Origin: Acidimicrobiaceae bacterium
Lineage (GTDB): Bacteria > Actinomycetota > Acidimicrobiia > Acidimicrobiales > RAAP-2
DNA length: 45,308 bases
NCBI GenBank assembly: GCA_003133325.1
Contig: PKXA01000069.1
Location: forward strand, 89,887 to 135,194
Direction of reading: 5' to 3'
Shown here: positions 4,147-35,324 of the stretch, one piece after another
Layout of the letters: every line of letters begins with the position of its first letter
How positions within the stretch are numbered: position 1 is the stretch's first letter
Made by a program: the position numbers and the translations under genes
Notes under the pieces: generated by a model
The model's input: only the letters and a program-made list of their open reading frames with translations
Databases searched by the model: none
Told to the model about the DNA's origin: nothing

Positions 4147-5010
4147 ATGCCCGCGGAACCCGATCATCTCCCCTATACCCGGACGTCCCGCTTCGCGTGG
4201 GGCGCGGTGGTGGTGATCCTGGTCGGCGTCACCGCTCTCCTCGTCTACACGTTGACCGATACCCCGACCACCCTCCGGGTGATCCACCGGGCAGAGACTT
4301 CACCCGACACCCTCCTGGCGCTGGCCGCCGTGCCCGTCTCCACCTTCGACGCCGTCGGCATCACCGCTCTGGACGCCGGGCTCACTCCCCCGACCGTGGT
4401 GACCGGACAAGCCCCCCTGTATGCGGCGGGAAAGCCCGAGGTGCTCTTCGTGGGGGCGGAGTACTGCCCATTCTGCGCGGCGGAGCGGTGGCCCCTGGTG
4501 CTGGCACTCTCCCGATTCGGCCACTTCGGGATGCTCCATGACATACTGTCGTCGACCACGTCGGTCTTCCCGGGAATCCAAACCTTCAGTTTCTTCGACG
4601 CGTCGTATACGAGTCCGTACATCACCTTCACAGGTGTCGAGATCTACTCTGACGTGGCTGCCCCCAGCGGCGCGTTCACCAAGATCACCAACCTCACACC
4701 GGGCCAGCAGTCCCTGATGACGCATTACGGGGCCGCGAGCCGCACCGGCAACGCCACCTACCCACTGGTCGACATCGACAACATGGTGGTGTCGACCACC
4801 TCAGGCTTCAGTCCGGCGACAATCTTGCGGCGGCCCAGGTCGACGATCATCGGCGACCTGAAGAAGGGGGAGACGCCGGACAGTCGGGCCATCGTGGCGT
4901 CTGCCAACTATCTGGCCGCGGGGATCTGCGCGGCCACCAACCAGCAACCGACCTCGGTATGCACATCGAAAGGAGTCCGGGTCGCCGCTCAGTCGCTGGG
5001 TGTGGCCTGA
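4147..5010 (+). CDS. second DUF929 membrane-anchored thioredoxin-fold protein (287 aa)
   Basis: It has a short cytoplasmic N terminus and one membrane helix (about residues 14-36, [21 protein letters not shown]). The outer DUF929 domain has [20 protein letters not shown], nearly identical to the 2561 protein around the CxxC. The distal cysteine pair is also kept (ICAAT...VCTS). The gene begins 3 bases after the VKOR stop, so translation is probably coupled. Two diverged DUF929 copies flanking one VKOR suggest two substrate-side oxidases, or an oxidase and an isomerase, fed by one quinone reductase; the split of roles is inferred only. Confidence 0.85.
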
Positions 5011-5045
5011 CCGCGGCAGCCGGCCACAGAAAGAAGCCCCGACGG

Positions 5046-5303
5046 TCAGCCGGCCTGGCGATCGGTCAACAGCTTGCGTTCCATTTCATTGAGGCCTCCC
5101 CAGATCCCATGAGGCTCACGAATCCGGACGGCGTAATCGAGACAGTCGGACTGTACCGAACAGGTGGAGCAGATTGCCTTCGCGTGTGCCTCACGCTGGA
5201 GCTTCTCCTCTTTACGCTCCGCATGGGCGGGAGGAAAGAAGATCTCGGCGTGAGGCCCGCGGCACGACGCTCTGATCTGCCACGTGTCGAGAGCTTGCGC
5301 CAT
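5046..5303 (-). CDS. WhiB family iron-sulfur transcriptional regulator (85 aa)
   Basis: A compact Wbl protein that should bind a [4Fe-4S] cluster. The four cysteines are visible: one in ASCRGP, two in AICSTC and one in SDCLDYA. They are followed by the G[VI]WGG turn (GIWGGLNEMER) and a basic C terminus. The chosen ATG at 5303 gives MAQALDTWQ and has GGAAGGA just upstream; a longer frame to 5390 lacks conserved residues. The Wbl subclass is unclear: the IREPHGIWGG block is unlike WhiB4, although the neighbouring ArsA pair is the gene set that flanks whiB4 in mycobacteria. Confidence 0.9.
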   Translation of the reverse strand: MAQALDTWQIRASCRGPHAEIFFPPAHAERKEEKLQREAHAKAICSTCSVQSDCLDYAVRIREPHGIWGGLNEMERKLLTDRQAG

Positions 5304-7717: not shown

Positions 7718-8143
7718 GTGCGCTCAATCCTTGTGGCCAGCGACGCGCCGTCGGTGAGGGCTGAAATCGCCGCCATCGCAGGACGCCCGGACATCGCCAT
7801 CCGTGAGGCCCGATCCGGGCCGGCGGTGCTCGAGGAGGTGGCCGAGAGCCGTCCGGACCTGGTGGTGGTCGACCTCCAGATGGGCAACATGGGTGGGATG
7901 GCTGTCTGCCTCGAGCTACGTCTCGAGGAGTCGTACGGCAGTCTCGAACATGTGCCGGTGCTGATGCTGCTCGACCGTCGTCCCGATGTGTTCCTCGCCC
8001 GCCGTTCAGGCGCCGAGGGGTGGGTGGTCAAGCCGCTCGACCCCATCCGCCTTCGTCGGGCCGTCACCTCATTGCTCGACGGTGGTACGTACTATGACGA
8101 GTCCTACCAACCACTGTCGGTCGTCCCCGCGACCGGCTCCTGA
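7718..8143 (+). CDS. stand-alone response-regulator receiver protein (141 aa)
   Basis: A single receiver domain with no output domain. The phosphoacceptor Asp is in LVVVDLQMGNMGG. The conserved Lys is in GWVVKPLDPIRLR, followed by the usual last helix. The N-terminal acidic pair is reduced to one Asp (VASDAPSV), so Mg binding may be altered. It begins with GTG 10 bases after the ArsA-like gene, and a CBS protein follows 32 bases later, so it may be part of that operon. No histidine kinase is in the window. It could signal through protein contact. Confidence 0.75.
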   Translation: MRSILVASDAPSVRAEIAAIAGRPDIAIREARSGPAVLEEVAESRPDLVVVDLQMGNMGGMAVCLELRLEESYGSLEHVPVLMLLDRRPDVFLARRSGAEGWVVKPLDPIRLRRAVTSLLDGGTYYDESYQPLSVVPATGS

Positions 8144-8175
8144 AGGTCTTCACCGACCCAACGAAGGCAGGGTCC

Positions 8176-9177
8176 GTGTTCCGACGACACCAGAATCGGC
8201 ATCTGCAACCCATTCAGAAGCGCCGCACCCTGCTGGGGAGGGGACGGTCGGCGGCAGCGGTCAGTGACCGCAATGGCGCTGCCGGGATCGGGGTCGGCCG
8301 CGGGGGTGATGCCCAGGAACAATTCATCGTGGAGGCGCTCGACGATCTACGCGATACCGTCGTCGGCGAGATCATGACCCCGCGGGTGGACGTGGTGGCT
8401 TTGTCCATCCCGGTGACGGCCGACGATGTCACCCGGGCCGTGCGTGAATCGGGCCACAGTTGCTTTCCGGTCTACGACGACAATCTGGACGACCTGATCG
8501 GGGTGTTGTTCGTCAACGATCTGATCCGGGCCGGTTGGAAGGTGCAAAGTGGGAGGCCCGAGGACCAACGGATCGACGATGTCGGGGCCCGGAGTTCCAT
8601 CCCTGCAGGGGCGATGCCGACCGACCCCGCCAACCAGGCAATTCCCGATCCGGTGGATATCTCCCGCCGCCTCCGCCAGCCCTTTTTGGTACCCGAGTCG
8701 CGTCTGGTGTTCGACGTCCTGGCCGAAATGCGTCGCCACCGACGATCGTACGCGGTGGTGGTGGACGAGCACGGTGGCGTCGAGGGTGTCTTGACGATGA
8801 AGGACGTGTTGGGAGCGCTCGTGGGTCATCTTTCCGACGAGTTCGACCCTGACGACGAGCCTGACGTGGTGAGGGTGGACGGAAGTCGCTGGCTGGTGGA
8901 CGGGCGGATGAGCGTCGACGATGTCCACGATCGCCTGGGGATCGATCTCCCCGAGGGTGAGTACGTGACGTTGGGGGGATTCCTCTTCGACGGCTTCGGG
9001 CATATCCCGGCCGAAGGCGAGGTGCTCGCCGTCGACGGATGGGAGCTCCGGGTGTCCGAGATGGACAAGCGACGGATAGCCAAAGTGGTGGCCAGGCGGG
9101 TCACCGTAGGTGACCCCGGTCCCAGGCACGACGCGGCGGCCGGTGAGACGGGGAGCGAGCGCACAACCGTCGGCTAG
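8176..9177 (+). CDS. CorC/HlyC-type CBS-domain protein (333 aa)
   Basis: Resembles CorC-like proteins: a CBS pair followed by a C-terminal CorC_HlyC (transporter-associated) domain. The first CBS starts at VGEIMTPRVDVVALS, and the second contains RRSYAVVVDEHGGVEGVLTMKDVLGALVG. The final domain is seen as WLVDGRMSVDDVHDRLGIDLP and YVTLGGFLFDGFGHIP. There is no CNNM membrane domain, so it is the soluble CorC form linked to Mg/Co homeostasis. About 60 residues before the CBS pair are low-conservation, and the GTG start at 8176 is only the best available choice. Confidence 0.82.
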   Translation: MFRRHQNRHLQPIQKRRTLLGRGRSAAAVSDRNGAAGIGVGRGGDAQEQFIVEALDDLRDTVVGEIMTPRVDVVALSIPVTADDVTRAVRESGHSCFPVYDDNLDDLIGVLFVNDLIRAGWKVQSGRPEDQRIDDVGARSSIPAGAMPTDPANQAIPDPVDISRRLRQPFLVPESRLVFDVLAEMRRHRRSYAVVVDEHGGVEGVLTMKDVLGALVGHLSDEFDPDDEPDVVRVDGSRWLVDGRMSVDDVHDRLGIDLPEGEYVTLGGFLFDGFGHIPAEGEVLAVDGWELRVSEMDKRRIAKVVARRVTVGDPGPRHDAAAGETGSERTTVG

Positions 9178-9220
9178 CATTCTTCTGTTCTGGACCGGCT
9201 GGTAAGCCGGCTCCGGTCAA

Positions 9221-9298
9221 CGGGCTGTGGCGCAGCTTGGTTAGCGCGCTGCGTTCGGGACGCAGAGGTCCCCGGTTCAAATCCGGGCAGCCCGACCA
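9221..9298 (+). tRNA. tRNA-Pro (anticodon CGG)
   Basis: A cloverleaf can be folded directly. The acceptor stem CGGGCTG pairs with CAGCCCG without mismatch. The anticodon stem is CTGCG/CGCAG around loop TTCGGGA (anticodon CGG, proline). The T arm contains CCCCGGTTCAAATCCGGG. The discriminator A is at 9295 and CCA is encoded at 9296-9298. Confidence 0.95.
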
Positions 9299-9380
9299 TT
9301 GAAGTACCCGGTCAGCGGGGACGCGGATCCCGGCTGTGGGACGGATCGCTCCCGCCAGGCGCCGAGCACAGGGTGCCGCC

Positions 9381-9406
9381 CGTTCGACTCCGTTCGACTC
9401 CGTTCG
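9381..9406. repeat. 10-bp direct repeat after the lipase stop
   Basis: The decamer CGTTCGACTC occurs twice in tandem (9381-9400) and a third partial copy follows (CGTTCG, 9401-9406). It lies just past the lipase stop codon, between that gene and tRNA-Pro. No hairpin or protein site is evident. Confidence 0.6.
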
Positions 9407-9412
9407 CCCCTC

Positions 9413-10496
9413 TCAGCGGAGGCAGGAGTCGGTGACGTAACACTTCAGGGGAGGTTCGCTCGTCACCATGCCCGTGGTGAGCCTGCCCGGCACTTCTGCG
9501 ATCAGCGAAGCCTCGTTGCTCATCAATGAGACGGCAGTGACGAAGGGCATCAGCGGGTCGGAGCAGACCGCGTTGGTGTCGATGGCGGCGAGGTGAGGGA
9601 GCGAGCCGGGGGCGGCCAGGGCCGCCATGGCCACCGCGTAGACAACAGAGGACGCCAAGATGGTCAGGTGCTCGAAGGGTTGGAGCGGACAGATCTGTTG
9701 CTCGGCGACGTTGAGGACGTTGGCGGCCGCGGGCAACGGTGAGACAGGGGTGGTGGTGATGTTCAAACCGGCCAACTCGTCGGTATAGCTGTAGATGTCG
9801 GTGTAGGCGATTCCCGGGAATGTCTGCCGGAGAGAGTTCATGGCGGTGATGAAGTGGGGCGGATCACCGTTGATCCGTTTCACCTCCTGCCATACCGCCG
9901 GAACGCATTCCAACCCGCACACCGGCGCCGCCACGTTGCCGCCGCCCTCGTTGTCGGGTGCGATGCCGACCAGACTGGCCACCATCGGCCGGATGTCGGG
10001 CCACCAACGCAATGCCCACCGCGGGGAGGTGCTCGCCCCTTGGCTCCATCCGATCAACTCCACTTGGCGACCGCTCTGCGCGTGCAGGCTCCGCACCGCG
10101 TTGACGACGTACTCAGCCGCTATCTGCACGTCGCCGTCACTGTGATCCGGCACCGTCACCGTGCAATACGGCCACCCACGAGAGGCGAAGGCCGGATCGT
10201 AGTTCCAGCTGTAGGCCTCTTGAGGGTCGAACACCGTGGGAGGAACCTCGAGGATGATGTCCCGGGTGGCTGATGCCGGAGGCTGAGAGCAGTGCAGTGC
10301 AGTGCAGTGCAGCATCGAGCGTGGCGGGCGACTCGCTCAATGCCGGGCCGGGTTGATCGATGGGCGCGTACACGGGGGCGGGACCAGTGGTGACCGACGC
10401 CGCGGGCGACGTGGATCCAAAGGAGGCGGTGGTGGCGCACAACGACACCACGACCGAACCCGTCACTGTCAGCAGAACCTTGCGAAACCAGGTCAC
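9413..10496 (-). CDS. secreted CALB-like lipase, frame interrupted at a 5-bp repeat
   Basis: Two frames together encode one lipase of the Candida antarctica lipase B type. The upstream frame (from GTG at 10496, with AAGGGG before it) gives a signal peptide (MTWFRKVLLTVTGSVVVSLC) and runs into TLDAALHC, which matches the mature CALB start LDAGLTC. The downstream frame (10315 to 9413) holds the catalytic domain: nucleophile GWSQGA, acid in YSYTDELAG, and histidine in CPLQPFEHLTI. All three match CALB (TWSQGG, YSATDEIVQ, VIDHAGS). The frames meet in the ACTGC repeat at 10289-10312. With one repeat more, or two fewer, a continuous secreted protein results. It may be phase-variable, decayed, or translated from the internal ATG at 10315 without a signal peptide. 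Confidence 0.8.
10289..10312. repeat. GCAGT pentanucleotide tandem repeat inside the lipase gene
   Basis: About 4.8 copies of GCAGT (ACTGC on the coding strand) with no mismatch, placed exactly where the reading frame of the secreted lipase breaks. A five-base unit shifts the frame with each gain or loss, so slipped-strand mispairing would switch the gene on and off. Confidence 0.9.
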
Positions 10497-10746
10497 CGGC
10501 CACACACCCCTTCTCGAGCAAGCCACCCTCGGTCGCCCTTAGGTAGCAGGTGCGCTTCCACAGAGCCAATCGGCAAGGACCACCTCGAGGTTGAGGACAT
10601 GACTCCTGACCGACAATCGACCGTGGCGATGATGGCTGATGTGGCCGATCAACCTCGAGGATGGCCAATCCCCACCGCCGCCACGTGCGAATGACCAGTT
10701 CAGCACAGCCCGTAGGATCTCGGAAATCGATAGGGGAGGAAACACC

Positions 10747-11712
10747 GTGGAGATGGAGTATCGACGTTTGGGTGGGTCGGGGCTGAAAGTCAGCGTGCTG
10801 GGCTTTGGCTCGTGGGTGACATTCGGGCCCCAGTTGGCCGGCGATCTGGCCGAGCAATGCCTGAGCGCCGCACACGATGCCGGAGTCAACTTCTTCGACA
10901 ATGCCGAGGCCTATGCCGGCGGTGAGTCGGAGAGCATCATGGGCAAGGCGATCGATTCCCTCGGGTGGCCCCGCCACAGTTACGTCCTCTCCACCAAGTT
11001 GTTCTGGGGCCTCCACGAGGGGCCCAACATGCGGAACACCCTCAATCGCAAGTACCTCCTGCAGGCCATCGACGCCTCGTTGGAGCGGTTGGGCCTCGAT
11101 TTTGTCGATCTTCTCTACTGCCATCGACCTGATCCGGACACTCCCATCGAAGAGACGGTGTGGGCCATGTCCGACATCATCACCAGTGGAAAAGCGCTCT
11201 ACTGGGGGACCTCGGAGTGGCCGGCCGCCGCGGTGCGCGAGGCCTGGGACATTGCCGATCGCCACAACCTCCATAAGCCGGTAGTGGAACAGCCCCAGTA
11301 CAACCTGCTCTGGCGGGACCGGGTCGAGACGGAGTACGCCCCCCTTTACGAAGACATCGGGCTGGGCCTCACCACCTGGAGCCCGCTCAGTTCGGGCTTG
11401 TTGACCGGCAAGTACCTCGACGGCGTCCCCGACGGCTCGCGCGCCACACTGCCGGGGTATGAGTGGTTGCGGAACCTGCTCACCGACCCCGAGCGCAATC
11501 AGAAGGTGCGCGAGCTGCAGTCCATCTCCGAGGAGTTGGGTTGCTCTCTGGCCCAGATGTCGATCGCCTGGTGCGCCAAGAACCCCCACGTCTCCTCGGT
11601 CATCACCGGAGCAAGTCGGGTCGAGCAGGTCCACGAGAATCTCAAGGCCCTCGAGGTCATCCCCATGCTGTCCGACGATGTCATGGCCCGCATCGCCGCC
11701 ATTACCGGCTGA
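10747..11712 (+). CDS. aldo/keto reductase (Kv-beta/YghZ-like)
   Basis: An NADP-dependent aldo/keto reductase with a TIM-barrel fold. The start reads [20 protein letters not shown]. The catalytic set is visible: Asp and Tyr in [14 protein letters not shown], Lys in VLSTKLFWG, His in [28 protein letters not shown] and [21 protein letters not shown] form the cofactor pocket. The overall pattern is that of voltage-gated K-channel beta subunit-like reductases. GTG at 10747 is favoured because GGAGGA ends 6 bases upstream; ATG at 10753 is the alternative. It overlaps the 3' end of the convergent membrane-protein gene by 11 bases. Confidence 0.88.
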
Positions 11713-12232
11713 CCGGGACCGAGACGGGGTCATCCGGGGGTTGCCCTCTGGCGGCGTGTTCGAGGTAGGCCATTTCGATCACCCGACGGCTCACCCGCCG
11801 GGCCACATAGAGCGAGAATGCCGCCGCCGGTAGTTCGACGAGCACGGCGAGAATCACCGCCGTGACAAAATTGCTGCGGCTGTCGGAGGTGGTGACATCG
11901 AACCACGCGTCCACCACCAGCAGAGTGGCCGCCGTCGTCGCCGGGAACTGCACCCGGGGATCCATCCGAAAGGCCAGGTAGGCCGCCCCGGCCAGGGCCA
12001 CCACCAGGAGCGTGTCGAATCCCACCCAGGTGCCCCGGTAGTGATGTTCGAGGTTCCTCTTGGGCAGACTCAGGGCCAGGTACACGATCCAGGGCAGCAG
12101 CCCGGTGGCCACAATGAGATAGATCCAAGCCAGACGCCGAGATCTCCGCCGTACCTCCGGGGAGGTCTGCACACTCCCGTCAACCACGACCGGCTGGACC
12201 GGCTTCCTCTCCGTCGATCTCCTTCTCGGCAC
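11702..12232 (-). CDS. small integral membrane protein of unknown function (176 aa)
   Basis: No family recognised with certainty. Four hydrophobic segments are evident (roughly residues 33-54, 71-89, 97-113 and 124-144), after a basic, proline-rich N terminus and before a charged C-terminal tail. The start is GTG with AAGGAG-like bases inside the first codons rather than before them, so the exact start is uncertain. It is encoded alone between the convergent aldo/keto reductase and the polyphosphate kinase gene on the same strand, about 90 bases from the latter. Confidence 0.65.
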
Positions 12233-12320
12233 CCGGCCAGCTTAGAAGTGCGGGCCGGGCCCAGTGGGGTCGTCAGGGGCGCCGGACGCTGAGGCAATGG
12301 CTATGTCATCGATTGCCGGG

Positions 12321-14486
12321 CTACGGCACTCGATCGGCAGCGGCCGGAAATCCCCGATCCGGGGGAGGACGGGACAGGACGACCTCGTCATGCGGCGTAT
12401 TCCTGTCGAGGGCCGACGCCTGAAGCGACTGCTGGGCGCTCACCCCGGCAACTGTGGGAATCCGGTGCCAGGTCCCGTCGGATGCCAGTGACCACGACTG
12501 GGTGTCGTCAGCCAGGTTGAGCGACAGGATCTCCTCTAATTGGGCGACCGCCTCGGGGTCGGCGACGGGGACCATCGCCTCGACTCTCCGATCGAGATTC
12601 CGACGACGGAGATCAGCCGATCCGATGTAGAACAGGGCGGACCGGCCCGCCTCGCCCCCGAATCGCAGAATGCGCGAGTGCTCGAGGAACCTGCCGACAA
12701 TGGAACGCACCCGAATCGTCTCGGACATGCCCGGCACACCGGGACGGAGGCAGCAGATTCCCCGGATGACCAGATCAATCGGCACACCCGCCTGCGAGGC
12801 CCGGTAGAGGGCATCGATCACCACCTGATCGTCGAGCCCGTTGACCTTGATCACGATACGTCCCTCGGGACCGGCCTTGGCCTCTTCTTCGATGCACTCG
12901 ACCACCCGCTCACGGATACCGCCCGGTGAGGTGACCAGCTCCAAGTACTGGGGCGGCTGGCTGAATCCGGTGATGTAGTTGAAGAAACGGGTGACGTCGG
13001 CCCCGAGCTCGGGGCGCGACGACAACACACCGAGGTCCTCGTACATGCGGGCCGTCTTCGGGTTGTAGTTGCCCGTGCCGACGTGGACATAGCGCCTCAC
13101 GTGGCCGCCCTCTTGGCGGACCACAAGGGTTGTCTTCGCATGGGTCTTGAGGCCCATGAGCCCGTAGATCACGTGGGCACCCGCCTCTTCGAGCGCCCGG
13201 GCCCAGCCAATATTGGCCTCCTCGTCGAAGCGGGCGGTGACCTCGACCAGCACCGCCACCTGTTTGCCGCGTTCTGCCGCTCTCACCAGTGCCGCCACCA
13301 CCGGGCTGTCTCCCGAAGTCCGGTACAGGCACTGTTTGATGGCCAGTACGTGGGGATCAACCGCGGCTTCATCCATCAACTCCTCCACCGACGCCGTAAA
13401 GGAGTCGTAGGGATGATGGACGAGCACGTCCTGTCGGTCCAGCACCGAGAATATCGAGGGGTTGTCGTCCAACTCGGCCGACAAGAAGGCCGCCGGGACC
13501 ATCGGCGTCCACGGCTCGTCGTGCAGTTCGGGGCGATCCAGGGCGTGGATGGCCCACATGCAGTCGAGCCCCAGGGGTCCCCTGAAGAAACAGACATCCT
13601 CGGCATCCAGTCCCAGGTCGGCGGTGAGGCGCTCGACCGGTTCGGAGGAAGTCCTCGAGTCGATCTCGAGTCGGACGACGGGCAGAAACCGTCGTCGTCG
13701 CAGCTCCTCTTGGAGGGCGAGCAGCAAGTCGTCAGCGGCGTCCTCGTCGAGGGCCAGGTCCGCATCCCGGGTCACCCGGAACACGCATGCGGGACCCACT
13801 TCCATCCCGGGGAACAGCTCGTGGAGGAAGGCCACCAGGACCTGCTCCAGGGGGACGAAGTGAGCGCCGCCGGGCAGCGGCAGCAGTCTCGGCACATTGG
13901 GTGGAACCTTCACGCGTGCGAAACGTCTGCTCTGCTCGGTCGGGTCGCTCACCTCGACGCCGATGTTGAGGGAGAGATTGGAGATGTAGGGGAACGGATG
14001 GCTGGGGTCCACCGTCAAGGGGGTGACAACCGGCAGGATGAGTCGGTCGAAGAGGTCGTGAAGATGCTCCCGGTCATCGGCGTCGAGGGTGTCCCAGTCA
14101 CTCAGCTCGATCCCCTCCACCGCCAACGCCGGGATCAACCCATCCACCAGAAGTGCCTCTTGACGGCGAACCATCCGCTCCATCGATGCACGCACATCGC
14201 CGAGCAGTTCCCCGGGAGTGAGCCCACTGGGGCCCCGGGTCTTGATGCGCGCCACCACTTGACGCTTCAACCCCGCCACCTGCACCTGAAAGAACTCGTC
14301 AATCCGTTCGCTGGTCAGAATGAGGAACTTGACCCGCTCGAGCAGGGGCACCCCGGCATCGTCAACCAGGTCGAGCAACCGTTGGTTGAAGTCGAGATCG
14401 GAAAGCTGGCGGGCGAAGTAACTCAGCACCTCGCCATCGGACGCTCCACCAGTACCCGACGCCTTGGCCGGTTCTCCGCTCATCAC
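12321..14486 (-). CDS. ppk1: polyphosphate kinase 1 (721 aa)
   Basis: Reversibly polymerises ATP gamma-phosphate into inorganic polyphosphate. Length is normal for Ppk1. The N domain begins SYFARQLSDLDFNQRLLDLVDD; the head domain has PLTVDPSHPFPYISNLSLNI. The catalytic region carries the phospho-accepting histidine in LKTHAKTTLVVR and the conserved YVHVGTGNYNPKTARMYEDLG. The second phospholipase-D-like site has FLEHSRILRFGGE. DRRVEAMVPV near the C terminus is also typical. It starts at ATG 14486 (a second ATG follows directly). It is divergent from inorganic pyrophosphatase, putting polyphosphate synthesis and pyrophosphate removal at one locus. Confidence 0.95.
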   Translation of the reverse strand: MMSGEPAKASGTGGASDGEVLSYFARQLSDLDFNQRLLDLVDDAGVPLLERVKFLILTSERIDEFFQVQVAGLKRQVVARIKTRGPSGLTPGELLGDVRASMERMVRRQEALLVDGLIPALAVEGIELSDWDTLDADDREHLHDLFDRLILPVVTPLTVDPSHPFPYISNLSLNIGVEVSDPTEQSRRFARVKVPPNVPRLLPLPGGAHFVPLEQVLVAFLHELFPGMEVGPACVFRVTRDADLALDEDAADDLLLALQEELRRRRFLPVVRLEIDSRTSSEPVERLTADLGLDAEDVCFFRGPLGLDCMWAIHALDRPELHDEPWTPMVPAAFLSAELDDNPSIFSVLDRQDVLVHHPYDSFTASVEELMDEAAVDPHVLAIKQCLYRTSGDSPVVAALVRAAERGKQVAVLVEVTARFDEEANIGWARALEEAGAHVIYGLMGLKTHAKTTLVVRQEGGHVRRYVHVGTGNYNPKTARMYEDLGVLSSRPELGADVTRFFNYITGFSQPPQYLELVTSPGGIRERVVECIEEEAKAGPEGRIVIKVNGLDDQVVIDALYRASQAGVPIDLVIRGICCLRPGVPGMSETIRVRSIVGRFLEHSRILRFGGEAGRSALFYIGSADLRRRNLDRRVEAMVPVADPEAVAQLEEILSLNLADDTQSWSLASDGTWHRIPTVAGVSAQQSLQASALDRNTPHDEVVLSRPPPDRGFPAAADRVP

Positions 14487-14701
14487 CCAACGATACCGGC
14501 CCTGTCAAACAGAGGCATCAGGGTGAAACTTGACGATCGCCTCCGGCAGACCGTTGAACCTCTCGCTCACGGGGGGACAACTCCCACCGTGGCCTGGGGA
14601 GGAATGGGGCCCCGCCAACCCAGGTCGGGTGGGGGGCCGGTAGGTTGCAGGGGACGTTCCACCCGGTGGGGTGGGTCGACAACAGACAGGATGGTGCCGA
14701 T

Positions 14702-26165: not shown

Positions 26166-26198
26166 TGTGAGCGAACTGTGAGCGAACTGTGAGCGCTC
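26166..26198. repeat. three 11-bp direct repeats upstream of the lipoprotein gene
   Basis: TGTGAGCGAAC occurs twice exactly and a third time with changes at its last three bases. They lie 20-60 bases upstream of the lipoprotein ATG, on one face of the helix, and could be a regulator site. No promoter boxes can be fixed around them. Confidence 0.6.
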
Positions 26199-33530: not shown

Positions 33531-35324
33531 GTGGGGAAGCGGTTGCGGGTTCTAACTTTGGTGATCTCGGTCGCGGCGACCCTGTTGGTCGTTCCCTCGG
33601 TCGGACAACTCGTGGCTGGTGGGTCGGCAGGTGCGGCCGCCGCTGACGCTCAACAGTTCACCGGGCGCGACATCTACTCGGCGGACGTCATCCCCAACCC
33701 CGATGGCCTGGGCTACATCATGTGGTACAGCGGTTGGCAGACTCAACAGGCCCTCAATTCCGGCCAGCTGGACACCATCTTTCGGCGGACCTCTCCCACC
33801 CCCAACGGCCCGTGGTCGAATCCCACCACCGACATCCTTCCCTCCCAGCTCGGGTCAACGGCCAGTGAGGTGGGCGATCCGTCGGTGAGCGTCGTGTCCG
33901 TGGGCACTTCGGATCTGTACACGATGTTCTTCACAGTGTTGTCGTGTGGTGTGGGATGCAACAACCAGGTGTGGTCAGCCACGTCCGGTGACGGCGATCA
34001 CTGGGCATCGTTCAAACGACTGGTCTTCACTGATGCCTACGGTTTGGACGCGTCCTCACCGTCGGTTGTGCTGGCGCCCTCGGGAGCACAGAGATGGACG
34101 GTGTACTACGGCGCCGACTGCGTGATCGGTGTGGCCAGCGTGGATGCCAATCGGGATCTGCTCACGTCTTCAGTCGCCTACCGAGGTTCTGGTTCGCAAT
34201 GCATGTCCAATCCCGATGTCTTTCAGAGCGGCTCCCGGTGGTACATGTTTTTCAATGTGCAGGAAACAACTGCGTCAGACGCGACCCGCTTCAACGTGTG
34301 GCAGATCAACTCGGCCTCCTCCACAGATTGGTCGCATTCGACCTCGGCACCGGTGATCCAGGTGGATGGGATCCAGCACTGTTCGGCGCTCACACCGTTC
34401 GTGCTGCCGGTAGCCCCCGATCAGTTCGATATCTATTACGGGTTGGTCCTCCCCGGTGCAAATGGCCAGTGCACCGATCTGACCAATTCGACGTCGATCA
34501 CGCTCGCCGGCAACCCGCCTCTTTCGCCACTATCCCCGGTATACCCGCCGGCTCAGAGCTGCGCCGGCTTTCCCAGCGGCAGCGTGACCGGCATGGCGCC
34601 TGGCCCAGGCGACGCCGGATACTGGATCGTCAACGCCGCGGGTCAGGTGGACGCGTGCGGTTCCGTAGCGAACAGTTACGGAGAGCTACCTTCAGCACCT
34701 CCATCACCCATCGTGGGGATTACGGCCACCCCCGACGGCCACGGCTATTGGTTGGTGGGACGGGACGGTTCGGTCTACGCCTTTGGTGATGCCGGGTTCC
34801 ATGGGTCCCTTCCTGCGGACGGAGTGACGCCCAGTCATCCCGTCGTCGGCATGGCAGCCACCCCCGACGGTGGGGGCTACTGGTTGGTGGCCTCAGATGG
34901 CGGCATCTTCACCGGTGGTGATGCACGGTTCCACGGTTCCACGGGTGGCTTCCCGCTGAATGCGCCCATCGTGGGCATGGCTGTCGATCCGGCCACAGGT
35001 GGTTATTGGATAGATGCCTCAGACGGTGGTGTGTTCGCCTTCGACGCTCCGTACCGGGGTTCGATGGGCGGATCGCGGCTCAATCGGGCGATTGTGGGCA
35101 TGGCTGTCGATCCCGCCAATGCCGGGTACTGGTTGGTGGGCGCCGACGGCGGCATCTTCTCCTTCGGGAGTGCCCCGTTCCACGGCTCGACCGGCAGTCT
35201 CGGACTCAACCGGCCGATCGTGGGCATGGGAGCGCCTCCGAACGGCGCCGGGTATCGCTTCGTCGCCGACGACGGCGGCATCTTCAGCTTCGGCTCCAGC
35301 CAGTTCTACGGATCGGCGGCGTAA
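33531..35324 (+). CDS. large secreted protein: glycosidase-like propeller plus GYWLV/DGGIF repeats (597 aa)
   Basis: A signal peptide (GKRLRVLTLVISVAATLLVVPSVG) is followed at about residues 40-340 by a domain resembling a five-bladed GH43/GH32-type propeller (YSADVIPNPDGLGYIMWYSGW, VGDPSVSVVS, SSPSVVLAPSGAQRWTVYYGAD, SNPDVFQSGSRWYMFFN). From about 350 on there are five to six repeats of roughly 45-50 residues built on PIVGMA-x-x-PDG-x-GYWLV-x-x-DGGIF-x-FGDA-x-FHGS. These repeats are common in surface proteins of Acidimicrobiia-type genomes and probably form a second propeller. GTG 33531 follows AAGGGGA; the frame is open earlier, but without a signal peptide. Likely cell-surface or exported; ligand unknown. 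Confidence 0.82.
   Translation: MGKRLRVLTLVISVAATLLVVPSVGQLVAGGSAGAAAADAQQFTGRDIYSADVIPNPDGLGYIMWYSGWQTQQALNSGQLDTIFRRTSPTPNGPWSNPTTDILPSQLGSTASEVGDPSVSVVSVGTSDLYTMFFTVLSCGVGCNNQVWSATSGDGDHWASFKRLVFTDAYGLDASSPSVVLAPSGAQRWTVYYGADCVIGVASVDANRDLLTSSVAYRGSGSQCMSNPDVFQSGSRWYMFFNVQETTASDATRFNVWQINSASSTDWSHSTSAPVIQVDGIQHCSALTPFVLPVAPDQFDIYYGLVLPGANGQCTDLTNSTSITLAGNPPLSPLSPVYPPAQSCAGFPSGSVTGMAPGPGDAGYWIVNAAGQVDACGSVANSYGELPSAPPSPIVGITATPDGHGYWLVGRDGSVYAFGDAGFHGSLPADGVTPSHPVVGMAATPDGGGYWLVASDGGIFTGGDARFHGSTGGFPLNAPIVGMAVDPATGGYWIDASDGGVFAFDAPYRGSMGGSRLNRAIVGMAVDPANAGYWLVGADGGIFSFGSAPFHGSTGSLGLNRPIVGMGAPPNGAGYRFVADDGGIFSFGSSQFYGSAA

Follow-up and report, generated by a model that had tools for sequence, protein, structure and literature searches.

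A CALB-Type Lipase Gene Split at a Pentanucleotide Repeat in an Acidimicrobial Genome: Probable Recent Frameshift of a Dispensable Gene

Results

The lipase locus

The window, by which we mean the whole analyzed stretch of 45,308 nucleotides (contig PKXA01000069.1 of the Acidimicrobiaceae assembly GCA_003133325.1), carries on its reverse strand an accessory, putative secreted lipase gene of the Candida antarctica lipase B (CALB) type. This gene lies between two conserved neighbors and is split into two reading frames at a tandem repeat. The relevant features are the following.

8176..9177, forward strand: conserved flanking gene kept in relatives (CBS gene), which we take to be of the CBS-domain membrane-protein type
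9221..9298, forward strand: tRNA-Pro (CGG), adjoining the lipase slot
9413..10288, reverse strand: CALB-type lipase catalytic domain by homology; 291 codons plus stop, no internal stop and no indel relative to the sister species
9668..9670, reverse strand: His codon of FEH (H216 in the frame that opens at 10315; invariant)
9779..9781, reverse strand: acid Asp codon of SYTDE, aligned to SATDE of CALB; present in 6 of 8 alignment rows
10043..10045, reverse strand: codon of the nucleophile, the Ser of GWSQG (S91 in the frame that opens at 10315)
10137..10496, reverse strand: signal-peptide and pro-region frame, VTWFRKVLL...YAPIDQPGPALSESPATLDAALHC, out of frame past the tract; signal peptide judged by eye
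10289..10312, reverse strand: repeat tract of 4.8 ACTGC units (GCAGT on the forward strand), where the frame breaks; the tract of the sister species has ten bases fewer
10313..10315, reverse strand: ATG just upstream of the tract; 1, 4 (as here) or 7 full units place it in frame with the catalytic domain, and by eye it is not preceded by a Shine-Dalgarno sequence
10507..10512, reverse strand: weak Shine-Dalgarno-like AAGGGG before the GTG start, by eye
10747..11712, forward strand: conserved flanking gene, divergent from the lipase and presumably of the aldo/keto reductase type

The catalytic frame matches CALB structures with phmmer E values from 2.3e-22 to 7e-19. The match begins at residue 8 (the last tract Cys) and extends no further than residue 274 of 299. 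In this alignment WSQG, TDE and EH stand in register with CALB. A preliminary description, based on the letters of the window only, had named a CALB-like lipase with intact Ser, Asp and His, and this assignment is borne out. A profile built from eight sequences matched CALB entries (E 1.4e-45 to 1.6e-42, extending to CALB chain residue 7) and the fungal lipase AFLB (6IDY, E 9.7e-54). Among the eight rows Ser and His are invariant (8/8) and Asp occurs in six. The two Aldersonia rows (L017 and L018) have Ser in the column of the acid Asp; in these proteins the triad may have another arrangement, unless the alignment is off at this column. The lipase-domain cysteines would presumably form disulfides, as in CALB. 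No Pfam or NCBIfam model recognizes the lipase protein of the window or of the sister species, and an AlphaFold2 prediction from six sequences (mean pLDDT 43.8) was too poor for a fold comparison with CALB. With homology to solved CALB structures and a predicted Ser-Asp-His triad, the gene shows two of the marks by which we would recognize the CALB type. A phage origin was also considered; a pattern-based scan of viral contigs gave zero matches.

The frame break and the number of repeat units

The 24-nt tract consists of 4.8 perfect, uninterrupted ACTGC units. The signal-peptide frame opens at a GTG (10494-10496), reads VTWFRKVLL...TLDAALHC into the tract and ends at a stop after 119 codons, while the catalytic frame runs from 10288 to its stop at 9413 with zero internal stops. 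Thus the two frames meet exactly at the repeat and hold the parts that the preliminary description had given them, with the signal peptide and TLDAALHC in one and the catalytic domain in the other. Scanning 1-7 full units, we found a single open secreted frame at 2 and 5 units and closed frames at the other numbers. The lipase gene therefore carries a coding-region repeat in which unit changes switch the frame, and it is correct that gaining one unit or losing two would restore a secreted product. The preliminary description took this arithmetic as a sign of possible phase variation, in which slipped-strand mispairing at the tract would turn secretion on (2 or 5 units) or off. We return to this reading below.

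The start region differs between the two species, with GTG and AAGGGG in the window and ATG and AAGGAGG in the sister. On start codon and Shine-Dalgarno sequence the start of the window's lipase looks weaker. A promoter and terminator scan of 9200-10800 returned zero sites.

The ATG just before the tract raises the possibility that the present repeat number is functional and that translation from this codon gives a leaderless cytoplasmic lipase. The frame from 10313-10315 is indeed open for 300 residues, and this ATG is in frame only at 1, 4 or 7 of 1-7 full units. However, we see no Shine-Dalgarno sequence before it, and the retained cysteines, as presumed disulfides, would suit an extracytoplasmic setting. 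Furthermore, the actinobacterial CALB-like PanLip without its signal peptide reportedly ended up mostly in inclusion bodies in E. coli (PMC12734981). We consider a leaderless enzyme very improbable. An even more elaborate proposal combines both ideas into a three-state switch, in which tract length would select the secreted lipase, the leaderless lipase from the ATG before the tract, or no lipase, with slippage persisting in a free-living actinobacterium from a lineage that has no known mismatch repair. To this we assign next to no probability.

Length of the tract compared to chance

Within 228 kb of this genome (the window and 11 further stretches) no other pentamer run is as long as these 24 nt, and in 20 replicates of an order-3 Markov model pentamer runs never exceeded 19 nt. 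In contrast, about 1.1 pentamer runs of 14 nt, the length found in the sister species, are expected per 228 kb by chance. A starting tract of this length therefore needs no selection. A 17-nt stretch of the ACTGC motif has no further copy across the 4.05-Mb assembly. A search of this assembly for duplicates of the lipase and of the tract also found none.

The repeat number at 10289-10312 rests on one assembly, a draft in 133 contigs, and an assembly or consensus artefact could hide a shorter tract and an intact gene. The draft state of the genome and the expected intact form, exactly two units shorter, both fit this explanation. However, there is no other motif copy in the assembly to cause a mis-join. 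In addition, short reads, if this assembly was built from them, would usually span all 24 nt. We regard an artefact as a slim chance.

We also inspected nine other long perfect repeats as members of a possible genome-wide family of repeat switches. By impression, as placed without gene calls, most lie between frames or at frame ends, and the repeat at 34924 looked like ordinary in-frame coding; the idea of such a family was dropped. Two further perfect tandem repeats in the window, an 11-mer repeat of 30 nt at 26166-26195 and a 10-mer repeat of 27 nt at 9380-9406, apparently lie outside genes; short tandem duplications are thus no rarity in this genome.

Comparison with related genomes

We searched 61 genomes for the lipase, including the genome of the window, with the genus represented by five genomes (again including its own). 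A match occurs in 11 of the 61, with fewer than 50 bits in six of these. Two pairs of records were taken as the same genes (L002 with L014, L005 with L019); the repeat flanks of L002 and L014 are identical. The sister species (G001, MAG Chersky.4_46; lipase L014) contains a lipase protein 95% identical to that of the window, read from an ATG without a frame break. The tract there measures 14 nt (2.8 units), exactly two units less than in the window, and encodes an ordinary Ala-Leu-His-Cys. This is the two-unit-shorter open form that the preliminary description had anticipated. The nucleotide alignment of window and sister shows 94.0% identity over 7342 columns. Among its gaps, listed for window positions 8000-14600, the ten-base gap at 10289 is the sole frame-changing intragenic indel: a six-base gap near the end of a small gene at 11721 keeps the frame and the remaining gaps are intergenic.

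When the repeat was counted in related genomes, as the preliminary description had advised, the ACTGC tract proved absent from all six more distant relatives (L015-L018, L003 and L004). Five of these (L015, L017, L018, L003 and L004) share 37-61% identity with the sister lipase, use different codons at the tract site and are in one frame. The spacing between the conserved Cys and the first strand is 8 residues in four of them and 9 in L003. For the sixth (L016, 66% identity) the contig ends before the signal peptide, and the sequence agrees with the short form from the LDA motif on. The shorter open form is thus shared by sister and outgroups, which makes the ten extra bases a derived feature of the window's lineage. 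The next closest lipases, L015 and L016 (65-67%), come from bins labeled Marmoricola and Acidobacteria, which suggests gene transfer or misbinning. Record names (Chersky, palsa) suggest that the relatives live in permafrost or peat and not in hosts.

The lipase slot in congeners

In the congener palsa_742 (L019) the neighboring genes are conserved, and the lipase is cut down to its last 72 codons. The first three quarters of the gene are gone, and some 250 bases, for the most part unmatched, occupy the slot (L019:4735-5000). This is an independent loss within the genus. Another congener (G003, 64% complete) has a different frame between the same two neighbors, without a lipase match. This frame (L030, about 4295-5070) is presumably short-chain-dehydrogenase-like. 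An 87-base match to the tRNA-Pro region was observed at L030 3853-3939. Given the replacement frame and this match, the slot beside the tRNA may exchange genes. Neither a lipase nor any close orthologue of the neighboring reductase turned up in G002 (87% complete), so that this genome is uninformative on the slot. The remnant in L019 and the different gene in the slot of G003 indicate that the lipase is dispensable.

Divergence and age of the break

Between window and sister the catalytic domain differs by 15 nonsynonymous and 14 synonymous changes (dN/dS 0.36) and the pro-region by 11 nonsynonymous and 6 synonymous changes (dN/dS 0.72), compared to dN/dS values of 0.105, 0.151, 0.213 and 0.305 for four neighboring genes. 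Fisher tests of the domain against neighbors gave p values of 0.03 (reductase), 0.10 (CBS gene) and 0.22 (PPK); with these three, the larger of the neighbors, pooled, the difference is not significant (p 0.10). The nonsynonymous share in the domain (15 of 29) is lower than the neutral 0.743 (binomial p 0.009). Such a deficit is expected if the domain still matters, and part of this signal comes from the sister branch. The neighbors have a higher dS (0.145-0.215) than the domain (0.065), for which local exchange or chance would suffice as a cause.

To polarize the 13 amino-acid differences in the domain, we took the allele common to L015, L016 or the L019 remnant as ancestral. Four changes are derived in the window, seven in the intact sister and two are ambiguous. 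Hence, the broken copy is not evolving faster than the intact one, and the break is probably recent. The lack of decay itself is weak evidence either way, since in 64% of simulations with 15 neutral substitutions no stop arises in the frame. Overall, the break is probably recent on the branch of the window or recently reversible; the data fit both.

Mismatch repair in the family

The genome shows zero matches to models of NucS, MutS domain V and MutL, while control genomes match. Within the family, the Pfam model NucS_C finds none of 37 genomes (own included) at the cut-off, apart from a fragment in G008 that stays below it, compared to 14 of 24 genomes from other families in the order. The full-length NucS model of NCBIfam matches none of 100 genomes sampled from the family, a count to be read next to its controls, of which 6 of 14 match and one of these above the cut-off. 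MutS_V is found in 5 of the 37 family genomes, in frames of 535 to 922 residues that are mostly paired, and the MutL model matches none of 61 relatives. Many of the genomes behind these counts are incomplete drafts. Judged by these models, most of the family may be without every known mismatch repair.

According to a 2017 survey, NucS occurs in three species of other actinobacterial classes, an acidimicrobial one among them, and some species seem to be without both mismatch-repair systems (PMC5290159). Missing mismatch repair may favor slippage in general; NucS, however, reportedly does not correct indels (PMC8228993).

Discussion

We consider it likely that the window records a recent, possibly segregating, loss-of-function frameshift of a dispensable accessory lipase, and not an on/off switch. 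The disruption is derived relative to intact orthologues, as befits a recent pseudogene. The starting state would have been a repeat-like 14-nt run of codons for Ala-Leu-His-Cys in a secreted lipase gene. This run would have gained two ACTGC units by slippage or by a ten-base tandem duplication, and the frame would have been lost. In its present form the gene would make no lipase but a peptide of 119 residues. This event would be recent, and the loss of function nothing unusual for a dispensable gene. Since the added units form a tandem duplication, occasional reversion is possible.

Several observations agree with phase variation as well. The frame arithmetic fits, the two-unit form exists naturally in the sister species, and the catalytic domain changes no faster than in the intact sister. 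A genome that matches neither MutS nor MutL nor NucS would leave slippage unrepaired by those systems. In meningococci, mod genes reportedly carry 3 to 37 tetra- or pentanucleotide units, and some at the low end of 3 are still classed as phase variable (PMC7157529). On the other hand, a Neisseria phasome study sets the pentanucleotide cut-off at five units or more and counts opa loci with 1-4 repeats as below it (PMC5953494). By this measure, taken from one study, the tract is too short both in the window (4.8 units) and in the sister (2.8 units). As 83% of opa genes (63/76, one study) have five or more units (PMC7157529) and mod genes start from three, 4.8 units is marginal rather than impossible. 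The sister tract is at chance level, and a tract kept in orthologues is not what we find, with zero tracts in six of six more distant relatives. The lipase gene itself is only a remnant in the congener L019 and missing from the slot of G003. We therefore judge a phase-variable (contingency) lipase to be unlikely, and on this point the preliminary description was not upheld. Nothing found here points to a selected switch.

A narrow literature query for phase variation in soil bacteria matched no paper, which is no proof of absence. With regard to phase-variable lipases, the lipase passage of PMC12817950 describes an insertion near lipG.

The recent frameshift that we favor is a further example of how a short tandem duplication inactivates a gene, and the two sister species clearly show the states before and after. 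It also calls for caution, because a frameshift at a repeat is by itself not phase variation. Should reads prove to be mixed in repeat number, phase variation would be extended to an apparently free-living acidimicrobial lineage.

How does this locus compare to known systems? In Neisseria opa genes the pentamer tract lies in the signal-peptide end of the gene. Like the window lipase, opa carries a five-base tract whose unit number sets the frame (PMC7157529, PMC5953494). In contrast, most opa genes have five or more units in one study, while the lipase tract comes to 4.8 units in the window and 2.8 in the sister species, and is missing from six more distant relatives.

As an enzyme, the putative lipase resembles CALB (1TCA group) and AFLB (6IDY): its sequence matches theirs along most of the catalytic domain, with the triad in register. 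The N-terminal motif of CALB is LDA-x-x-C. Unlike these two proteins, the window lipase is bacterial, carries YAPIDQPGPALS in its pro-region and has no Pfam or NCBIfam model. PanLip from Pseudonocardia antarctica is likewise described as CALB-like and actinobacterial, and is reportedly a secreted protein with a signal peptide, a putative propeptide and three predicted disulfides (PMC12734981). PanLip is intact and has been characterized, whereas the copy in the window is frameshifted.
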